64,000 nucleotides of DNA. Origin: Halorarum halophilum. GTDB taxonomy: Archaea; Halobacteriota; Halobacteria; Halobacteriales; Haloferacaceae. Both the position numbers and the translations under genes were made by a program. Under the pieces are notes generated by a model. That model ran no database searches. It was given only the letters and a program-made list of their open reading frames with translations, and was not told the origin of the DNA. The stretch is from positions 248,001-312,000 of the forward strand of contig NZ_CP058529.1 of NCBI RefSeq assembly GCF_013401515.1, written 5' to 3'. Shown piece after piece: positions 57,042-59,994 of this stretch (the stretch's first letter is position 1; the number at the start of each line of letters is the position of its first letter).

Positions 57042-58295
57042 CTACCTGCCGAGGTCAGCGTGCGCCGAGGAGAGGTTCCGGGAAGCGAGCGCGGACAGTA
57101 GCGAGAGTTCGCCGGCGAGCGCCGCGACCGCGACGGCCTCCGCGAGCGCGTCCGCGTTGCTGCCGGCGGGGTCGCCGCCGCCGCGGACGCCGAGCACGTC
57201 GAGCGCCTCCGATTGCGTCGGGAGCTTCGTCCCGCCGCCGACCGTGCCGACCTCCAGCGAGGCGAGCGTGACCGAGACGTAGAGGTCGCCGTCCCGCTCC
57301 CCCGTGGAGTCGCCGCCCCCGCCTCGGGCGACGACTTCGGCAGTCGTGATGGCGTTCGCGCCCTCGACGACCTGCGCCGCGTCCTGGCCGGTCGCGAGGA
57401 ACATCGCGGCGACGGAGTTGGCGACGTGCGCGTTGAACCCCAGCCCGCCCGCCTTCGCGCTCCCGACGAGGTTCTTCCGGGTGTTCACCTCGGCGACCGC
57501 CTCGGGAGTCGTCTTCAGCGTCCTCTTGACCGTCTCGCGGGGGACGGTCACGTCGGCGGCGACGGTGCGCCCCCGACCCTCGACGGCGTTGATCGCGGCG
57601 GGCTTCTTGTCCGAGCAGAGGTTGCCCGAGAGCGCGACGAGGTGGGCCGACGTCTCGTCCTCGACGACCTCGCAGGCTGCCTCCGTCGCGATGGTGGCCA
57701 TGTTCATCCCCATCGCGTCCTTCGTGTCGTAGGCGAACCGGAGGTAGACGTTGTTGCCGACGACGTACGGCGTCACCTCGTGGAGTTCGCCGTGGCTCGT
57801 CGTCGACTCGGCGGCCTCCCGCAGAGAGTCGACGTTGTCCCGGACCCACGACGCGAGCGCCTCGGCCTCGGCGACGTCGGCGACGCGGAACGCGGGCGCG
57901 CGGGTCATCCGGTTCTTCAGGACGCGGGCGCCGGCGCCGCCGGCGGCGTCGAGCGCGGCACAGCCCCGGTTGACCGAGGCGAGCAGCGCACCCTCGGTCG
58001 TCGCCATCGGGAGGTAGCGCTCGCCGGAGATGGCGCCGCCGTCGATCTCGACGGGGCCGGCGACGCCGATCGGCACCTGCACCGCGCCGATCATGTTCTC
58101 GATGTTCGCCTCCGCGTCGGCCGCGGGGAAGGCGTACTCGCTCGTCGTCGCGAGATCCGCGTCGGACTCGGACTCGACCAGCAGGCGCCGGGCCGCGGCG
58201 GCTACGTCCGCGTCAGCGTGCTCCTCGAGTTCGTACAGGCGGAGGTCGCCCTCTCGAACCCGGTCGGCGAGGGTCTCGGGGTCCGTGTCGGTCAT
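57042..58295 (-). CDS. hmgA: HMG-CoA reductase (class I)
   Basis: This 417-residue enzyme reduces HMG-CoA to mevalonate, the rate-limiting step for archaeal isoprenoid lipids, and is the mevinolin/statin target in haloarchaea. Motifs: ENMIGAVQVPIG, the catalytic Glu in TEGALLASVNRG, DAMGMNMA, SDKKPAAINAVEGRG with the catalytic Lys, and GTVGGGTKLPTQ. The last His is in NLSSAHADLGR. A CTTAG box (58318-58327, minus strand) lies about 23-32 nt upstream. Confidence 0.97.
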   Translation of the reverse strand: MTDTDPETLADRVREGDLRLYELEEHADADVAAAARRLLVESESDADLATTSEYAFPAADAEANIENMIGAVQVPIGVAGPVEIDGGAISGERYLPMATTEGALLASVNRGCAALDAAGGAGARVLKNRMTRAPAFRVADVAEAEALASWVRDNVDSLREAAESTTSHGELHEVTPYVVGNNVYLRFAYDTKDAMGMNMATIATEAACEVVEDETSAHLVALSGNLCSDKKPAAINAVEGRGRTVAADVTVPRETVKRTLKTTPEAVAEVNTRKNLVGSAKAGGLGFNAHVANSVAAMFLATGQDAAQVVEGANAITTAEVVARGGGGDSTGERDGDLYVSVTLASLEVGTVGGGTKLPTQSEALDVLGVRGGGDPAGSNADALAEAVAVAALAGELSLLSALASRNLSSAHADLGR

Positions 58296-58659
58296 GGGTT
58301 CGGTTGGTGGTGGCGGCCGCTAAGTCGTATCGGTTCCGTTGATTCGCTGCGTCCGGTTCGTGTTCTGTTGCCGTCAGTACCCTGTGCACCCTATCGGGAA
58401 AATGAGTGGTGTTGAAAGCCCCCGCGCTGTCGGGTCGCGCGGCCGGTTGCGCTCCTCGCACCCTTGCTTTGCTCGGGTGCTGTGGTGCTTGACCGCCCGT
58501 GCTTCCCCGACAGCGCGGTCCCTTTCAGTCCCACCCTGCGAAGTTCCGCTAACCTCGTCCTCGGGGACTACTGCTCGCGCCCGCAGGGAGTAGTCGGCGT
58601 CGTCGCTGGGCGGGGCGAGTCGACGAGTGTCGAACCGGTTGGCACCTCGGCCCGGCCCC
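58296..58659. other. Intergenic region between the PQQ gene 3' end and hmgA 5' end
   Basis: This 364-nt stretch has no convincing gene. It holds the likely hmgA promoter (58318-58327) and the inverted-repeat element at 58407-58533. Bases 58540-58659 show nothing I recognise. Confidence 0.5.
58407..58533. repeat. 127-nt structured inverted-repeat element
   Basis: The left arm (58407-58436) and reversed right arm (58504-58533) match at 23 of 30 positions, including GTGG, TGAAAG and a perfect 13-bp block CCGCGCTGTCGGG. Inside, GCACCC (58458-58463) pairs with GGGTGC (58475-58480). No reading frame crosses it. The element could be a non-autonomous mobile remnant, a structured RNA or a regulatory structure upstream of hmgA. 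Confidence 0.65.
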
Positions 58660-59994
58660 TCACTCGGCGTCGAACGCCCAAAGCGTCGCGGTCGTATCCT
58701 GGCCGGAACCCACCGTGGACTGCTGACGCTCTTCCTCGGGCGTGGACTCGGTCGTGAACGTGTAGCTCCCCTCGGCGGGGACGACGCCGCGCGCCCTGGT
58801 CCCGGACCTCGTCAGCTCCCACGTCGTCGACCCGTCCTCGCGGTCGAGCGCGACCGCCCGAACCTCCCGGGCCTCGTCGTCGACGCGGAGCACGTGGACC
58901 GCGCGCTCGGTCACCGTCGCGACCGTCCCCTGCGCGAAGCGGTCGGGGGCGAGACGGACGTGCCACAGTCGCTCGCCCCCGTTCGAGAGGTCGTAGGCCG
59001 CGACGTGGCCGGTGAGCCCCGCGACGTACACCGTGTCGCCTGCGACGGCCGGTCGGAGCACCGCCTTGCCTGGCCAGTCCGCGAGCCAGCGCTGCGAGCC
59101 GTCGGTCCCGACCGCTTCGACACCGTCGAAGCCCACACGGACGAGGGTGTCGCCGGCCAGTACGACCGTTGAGGTCGACGGACCGTCGTCCTCGCGCCGC
59201 CAGCGCTCGGTCGCGTCGGACGGGTCCAGCTCGAGCAGCGCCTTTCCCATCGAGACGTACACCGCGTCATCGGTGACCGCCGCCACGCGAGGACTGCCGA
59301 ATGGATCGTTCATGTGGTCGTCGTCGGTCGCGGACTCGGGGAACGCCCACCGACGGCTCCCGTCGTGGTCGAACGCGACGAGTCCGAACGGGCCACCGGC
59401 GTACACGCCGCTCTCGGTGACGGTCGGCGGCTCGTTGAAGTGGACGTTCTCGACCGGGTCGGTCGTCCAGAGCTGTTCCGGTCCGGCGGGGTCGATGGCG
59501 GCGATCGACTGCCCGACGCTCGCGAACAGCCGACCACGGTAGTACACCGGTCGTCGGTTCGAGTTCGGCGCGGAGAACGCGAACTCGACTGGCTCGCCGT
59601 CCCGCGAGAGCGGGAGTGACCACCGACGTTCCCCAGTGTCGAGCGCGTACGCCTCAACCGTCGCACGCGGGGGGCCGTCCGTCGGCTTCCCGCGGGCGAC
59701 GTACACCGTCCCGTCGACGACCGTCGGCGTCGTCACCGGGCCGTCGACCTCGACGTGCCAGCGTTCGGTCGGCTCCGCGCCGGTCACGGCTGTGGTGGAG
59801 CCGACGTGGCCCGCGGTCCGGCCGAGCATCGGCCAGGACCCCTCGGATGCCCCGGAGCTGTTGGGGGTGCCGATGGTATCGTCTGTTTCGTTGGTATCGT
59901 CGAATCCACCGGGAACCCGAGCCAGACAGCCTGTCGTCAGTGCGCCGCCGGTGAGGGCGAGGGAGGCGCGCCGTGTCAATCGTTGGGGGACCAT
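58660..59994 (-). CDS. PQQ-type beta-propeller lipoprotein
   Basis: This 444-residue protein has a Tat/lipoprotein signal (LTRRASLALTGGALTTGC) with a lipidated Cys at about residue 23. An acidic/Ser/Thr linker precedes the propeller, with blades DGTVYVARG, TGERRWSLP, GPEQLWTTD, GGPFGLVAFDHDGSRRW and SDATERWRRED. It is related in design to the lipoprotein at 49357-50514. The role is unknown; exposed on the outer face. Confidence 0.85.
   Translation of the reverse strand: MVPQRLTRRASLALTGGALTTGCLARVPGGFDDTNETDDTIGTPNSSGASEGSWPMLGRTAGHVGSTTAVTGAEPTERWHVEVDGPVTTPTVVDGTVYVARGKPTDGPPRATVEAYALDTGERRWSLPLSRDGEPVEFAFSAPNSNRRPVYYRGRLFASVGQSIAAIDPAGPEQLWTTDPVENVHFNEPPTVTESGVYAGGPFGLVAFDHDGSRRWAFPESATDDDHMNDPFGSPRVAAVTDDAVYVSMGKALLELDPSDATERWRREDDGPSTSTVVLAGDTLVRVGFDGVEAVGTDGSQRWLADWPGKAVLRPAVAGDTVYVAGLTGHVAAYDLSNGGERLWHVRLAPDRFAQGTVATVTERAVHVLRVDDEAREVRAVALDREDGSTTWELTRSGTRARGVVPAEGSYTFTTESTPEEERQQSTVGSGQDTTATLWAFDAE

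Follow-up and report, generated by a model that had tools for sequence, protein, structure and literature searches.

A hairpin repeat upstream of hmgA in Halorarum halophilum is likely a remnant of a REPIN/SMR-like mobile repeat of Halobacteria

The analyzed window, a stretch of 64,000 nucleotides of the Halorarum halophilum contig NZ_CP058529.1, carries two genes on the minus strand that frame the element described here: hmgA, encoding HMG-CoA reductase (57042..58295, start codon at 58295; Pfam PF00368, HMG-CoA_red, E = 7.6e-127), and a gene encoding a PQQ_2 beta-propeller protein (58660..59994; Pfam PF13360, E = 1.2e-23). Inspection of the sequence alone had pointed to an inverted repeat at 58407-58533, and this repeat proved to be real. 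Its arms of 29 nt (58406-58434 and 58506-58534) match at 23 positions (79% complementary), include a perfect 13-bp core (CCGCGCTGTCGGG / CCCGACAGCGCGG), and enclose an inner hairpin. The element is located between the two genes, as had been proposed; 118 nt separate it from the hmgA start, and the stop of the PQQ_2 gene is 123 nt away on the other side. No real gene runs across it; one spurious plus-strand open reading frame ends at 58415. From its location, an influence on hmgA expression had been suggested as possible. The haloarchaeal core promoter is expected closer to hmgA, and the hairpin copy is placed upstream of that region.

The limits of the conserved unit are 58414 and 58536 (123 nt), with the element read on the minus strand; the outer pairing of GTGGTGTT with CCCAC is mostly peculiar to the hmgA copy. 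Over this span, the main hairpin (P) gave a full-length match to the covariance model of the family (121 bits, E = 9.5e-23, model positions 1-125), the hmgA copy itself being among the 30 sequences used to build that model. The unit starts with an unpaired 5′ tag, GGGTGGGACT (58527..58536), which was near-invariant in alignment A1. In the adjoining basal helix 1, GAAAG on the 5′ side (58522..58526) pairs with CTTTC on the 3′ side (58414..58418); the helix was paired in 30/30 sequences, and one of its pairs covaries from AU to GC. A symmetric three-base internal loop separates this helix from the 13-bp variable stem (helix 2), formed by the 5′ arm CCGCGCTGTCGGG (58506..58518) and the complementary 3′ arm CCCGACAGCGCGG (58422..58434). 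Both arms showed covariation, with 95.6% of cells paired and double changes in 11 of the 13 pairs. Two conserved inner motifs follow, CAAGCACCACAG (58480..58491; family consensus CAAGCACCGCAG) and GAGGAGCGCA (58448..58457), and the conserved boxes CAAGCACCGCAG and GAGGAGCGCAGC flank a small terminal hairpin. Upstream of the tag on the element strand, an accessory hairpin (H; GACTACT..AGTAGTC, 58566..58595, minus strand, 'type A' flank) was detected, which recurs beside many copies, including six other loci compared, with a stem sequence that varies from copy to copy. The minus strand folded at -86.2 kcal/mol, compared with -51.9 ± 4.0 kcal/mol for dinucleotide shuffles, and 0 of 200 shuffles were as low (z approximately -8.6).

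Searched at the DNA level, the window genome gave 43 matches. Exact occurrences of the motif GGGACTGAAAGG numbered 42, and 61 were counted when up to one mismatch was allowed (8 for the reversed control); the covariance model gave 74 hits at E ≤ 0.01 in the 4.28-Mb genome. Once hits on both strands had been merged, about 70 distinct places were left, only one of which, the hmgA hairpin, was a convincing copy within the window in the covariance-model search. A single copy lacking conservation was thus not what was found. The element does belong to a multi-copy, cross-species family. The sequence-only reading had suggested searching with the arm, but as a query CCGCGCTGTCGGG would miss most family members, because the arms are the least conserved part. 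The parts conserved across the family are GGGTGGGACTGAAAGGGGCC, CAAGCACCGCAG, GAGGAGCGCAGC, and GGGGGCTTTC. The family is apparently undescribed in the literature searched.

Copies facing each other head-to-head were overrepresented in the window genome (8 doublets vs 0.46 expected, P = 3e-8), and the tags faced each other in all of them. The ends in these doublets lay 140-279 nt apart, and no autonomous element was seen in a non-exhaustive look. As the hmgA copy has no partner hairpin, we read it as a singlet remnant.

Beyond this genome, the exact end motif GGGACTGAAAGGGGCC was found in 110 of 292 sampled Halobacteria genomes, representing 41 of 77 genera, with 0 matches for the reversed control; named carriers include Halobaculum, Haloarcula, Haladaptatus, Halorussus, and Haloglomus. 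Counts per genome ranged from 0 to 65, even inside one family. In a sample of 295 genomes from the whole phylum, every hit fell within Halobacteria, and matches on plasmids were in agreement. A virus-borne element was considered and rejected, as phage records held no match to the element and only four contigs in IMG/VR carried the exact motif.

Pairing was maintained although the stems differ widely. In alignment A1, 96.5% of cells were paired (77.6% when shuffled), double changes occurred in 20 of 27 pairs, and the covariation score was 0.442, as against 0.124 for shuffled and at most 0.071 for slid alignments. Despite great differences in arm sequence, Watson-Crick pairs accounted for 93.5% of all pairs in a collection of 93 distinct stems taken from several genomes. 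The remaining mispairs were unevenly distributed. On the GGGACTGAAAG strand, G.T outnumbered A.C by 39 to 7 (p = 1.8e-6), and in a second set, comprising 90 stems gathered in a separate scan of named contigs, the ratio was 34 to 7 (p = 2.5e-5); each distinct stem was counted as independent, and some genomes may be represented in both sets. Unless one strand is under selection, both mispairs should be equally frequent in double-stranded DNA. The excess of G.T over A.C therefore points to selection on the GGGACTGAAAG strand to fold, and on this sequence evidence we take it to be the folding strand; the excess fits RNA and single-stranded DNA alike. It also bears on the idea that complementarity is kept only by template-switch correction of quasi-palindromic DNA, with no selection on a folded strand. 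Such correction would explain simultaneous changes of both arms, including those between Haloarcula orthologues, but predicts equal G.T and A.C by element orientation, and in view of the two observed ratios we regard it as distinctly improbable.

A further alternative is that the copies are genes for structured non-coding RNAs or cis-acting RNA elements (3′UTR or attenuator hairpins), each working locally, so that covariation would reflect selection on RNA structure. Covariation of the kind seen in Rfam families and the preference for G.U-type mispairs on one strand are consistent with this, as is the orientation of the element among tandem genes in the window genome, where it shares their coding strand in 17 of 21 cases (p = 0.007). 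However, this coding-strand bias did not hold in other genomes (17 vs 12, p = 0.46), and we rejected it as proof of RNA function. Furthermore, Rfam 15 contained no family matching at gathering score (the best sub-threshold matches, at 12.7-16.9 bits, were far below the cut-offs), and the distribution is patchy, in that a single genome can have as many as 65 copies while relatives lack the element. Orthologous copies also speak against local RNA function, in that they carry pair-breaking changes and diverge like the adjoining intergenic DNA (see below). Taken together, we consider the RNA reading unlikely.

Full and empty sites were compared at two loci in genomes that were assigned to Haloarcula from matches to named Haloarcula contigs. 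At locus 1, a segment of approximately 199 nt was present in four species, and 31 nt stood in its place in a relative with 93% identity in both flanks. Remnants persisted in some further species, and loss therefore occurs as well, so that part of the presence/absence pattern reflects loss and not gain. The element at this locus differed between species at 1-6 of 155 positions, a rate similar to that of neighboring intergenic DNA, and some of the changes in orthologous copies were uncompensated and pair-breaking. This combination speaks against each copy having a function that is maintained and favors selection on moving lineages. At locus 2, five species had an empty site and at least six an occupied one. 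The unit inserted there is a doublet, in which two different hairpins face each other across approximately 24-30 nt, enclosed by the inverted ends ACAGCCAGAAAGCCCC / GGGGCTTTCTGGCTGT. Its orientation differed between Haloarcula species, being opposite in G184 to that in G126 and G552. The stems at locus 2 (GACTGCCTGAAC, GGCTGGCTGAAC, and GGCTGGCTGCAC, each with a matching arm) showed compensated differences; the compared stems are likely orthologous, and the changes could stem from selection in place or from arm-to-arm correction.

No target-site duplication was found between full and empty sites at either locus, within an uncertainty of a few bases, and none of the empty sites compared was exact to the base. 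At hmgA, the copy was absent from both sampled congeners, whose intergenic DNA is too diverged for exact empty-site borders. On a Haloarcula rara plasmid (L211, 2886-3339), an element-bearing insertion parts two cobalamin genes that lie next to each other in Halorussus aquaticus; the borders of this insertion into the cobalamin operon are approximate only, as derived from the plasmid comparison.

These comparisons bear on the earlier suggestion that the hairpin is a miniature inverted-repeat transposable element (MITE) or a structured RNA. The description as a multi-copy, cross-species inverted repeat with a structured single strand stands, whereas the classical MITE does not. As in the MITEs of DDE transposons, the copies are small, non-coding, non-autonomous, and dispersed and have inverted ends. 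Unlike in MITEs, the target-site duplication is absent at the two orthologous loci examined, there is no known cognate transposase, the termini could not be linked to any transposon among those looked at, and the stems vary between copies. An origin as a classical MITE is accordingly highly improbable.

Several copies were altered in the interior. Bare 28-nt palindromes without interior, leaving CCGCGG, CCGG, or GC, were observed at seven loci of the window genome and at four further loci, and are probably deletion products. Conversely, elements of approximately 50-60 nt with two small hairpins were inserted inside the main hairpin in the window genome (L003/L068 and L082) and in Haloarcula (L134/L371 vs L372); G126 carries two such small inserts, absent at the same position in G552. 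Possibly, these inserts are terminal-only palindrome-associated transposable elements (PATEs). At two loci (L240 and L228), two or three successive occurrences of the 3′ end GAGCGGGCGGGGGCTTTC were seen 3′ of the element, with a spacing of approximately 50-70 nt, as if partial insertions had been repeated. The bare palindromes raise the question whether the element is itself a nested composite, i.e. a short outer palindrome, GAAAGGGGCCGCGGGGGCTTTC, with an inner hairpin element similar to SMR-A inserted at its center. SMR-A of Haloquadratum indeed inserts inside PATE/IS605 palindromes (PMC3119063), and GAAAGGGGCCGCGGGGGCTTTC was seen bare at several places, with interiors of 2-11 nt; from there up to 60 nt, no intermediate sizes were seen. 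However, bare cores of mostly CCGCGG, CCGG, and GC are what is expected from deletion between self-complementary arm feet, and a hairpin was lost on one side at orthologous Haloarcula loci. Moreover, the postulated inner element would be bounded by the variable arms and would thus be without constant ends. We thus give the nested composite as little likelihood as the RNA reading.

Regarding a mobilizing enzyme, profile searches of the window genome gave no match to the Y1 transposase (PF01797) or to the TnpB zinc ribbon (PF07282); PF01797 was likewise without a match in a second genome (G001). TnpB was present in 27 of the 30 genomes in a search of relatives, compared with none detectable in the window genome, and the family palindrome lay near TnpB at 1 of 30 sampled loci from relatives. 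Nor did the presence of Y1 follow copy number, as Y1 occurred in 9 of 16 genomes with many copies and in 201 of 292 overall (p = 0.28). An identity as a TnpB/IS605 end or omega-RNA was therefore rejected, given the lack of TnpB and Y1 matches in the genome and the single palindrome near 30 TnpB loci. A CRISPR-like ACTGAAAG handle was also dismissed as mere resemblance, a text search with the motif having led to one Desulforudis CRISPR repeat starting with CTTTCAGTCCC. A past or distant mobilizing enzyme is conceivable.

In our view, the hmgA hairpin is likely a decayed half-unit of a transposase-free, REPIN/SMR-like mobile repeat that moved via a folded single strand. The complete unit would consist of two inverted hairpins whose GGGTGGGACT tags point toward one another, with a short core in between. 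By excision or exposure, the GGGACTGAAAG strand would become a folded single strand, either as single-stranded DNA or as RNA that is copied back, and a trans-acting enzyme may then recognize its shape together with the conserved boxes. If so, spreading lineages must keep pairing but not stem sequence. Once inserted, a copy would be free to decay and would often lose one hairpin, leaving singlets such as the hmgA copy, which is probably immobile now. More tentatively, and with rather doubtful standing, the family might represent a class-wide archaeal mobile repeat that is recognized mainly by shape, with conserved boxes on a covarying stem folded from one particular strand, and that is moved by a single-strand system (DNA or RNA-copied) of Halobacteria whose enzyme is neither Y1/RAYT nor TnpB-linked.

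An abundant haloarchaeal repeat is hereby provided with a sequence, a structure model, a distribution, and orthologous full and empty sites. Since a folded strand is predicted, the movement of transposase-free small mobile repeats of haloarchaea becomes a testable question, and genomes with dozens of copies but no detectable IS200/IS605 genes narrow the search for the enzyme.

Three known systems resemble the element in part. PATEs are related to IS605 and have no terminal inverted repeats (PMC3119063). The family shares with them its occurrence in haloarchaea, the non-coding nature, near-terminal palindromes, the lack of target duplication, and core deletions, but it has terminal inverted repeats, and ends related to PATE/IS605 were not evident (1 of 30 TnpB loci). 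SMR-A of Haloquadratum walsbyi (HqIRS42/43/55), the mobilization of which was called enigmatic by the authors (PMC3119063), is closer. It measures approximately 110 bp, belongs to the same archaeal class, and likewise displays prominent inverted repeats, no target duplication (here, at the two Haloarcula loci), tens of copies, and no transposase; this likeness rests on descriptions of HqIRS42/43/55 and not on their sequence. In addition, the doublet found in opposite orientation at one orthologous Haloarcula site resembles the same-site, opposite-orientation cases named 'SwitchRepeats' in Haloquadratum (PMC3119063). In contrast, SMR-A targets near-terminal IS605/PATE palindromes, whereas the copies described here lie between ordinary genes in a genome with no detectable IS200/IS605 gene, and 29 of 30 TnpB loci were without the family palindrome. 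SMR types are also commonly more than 95% identical (PMC3119063), while these copies differ by approximately 30%, with compensated stems. REPINs and REP elements, finally, comprise two inverted palindromes around a spacer, with singlets as remnants, and are tied to RAYTs (Bertels and Rainey, PMC3116915). The inverted doublet around a spacer, the extragenic position, the singlet remnants, and the compensatory changes in the predicted hairpin (PMC3116915) are shared with the present family, which differs in being archaeal, in having no match to a RAYT (Y1 transposase), and in the length of its hairpins (approximately 125 nt vs 20-40 nt), no sequence relationship having been shown. As it departs in one tested feature each from REPINs (RAYT association) and SMRs (IS605/PATE targeting), we do not place the element as a member of either group and describe it as REPIN/SMR-like.
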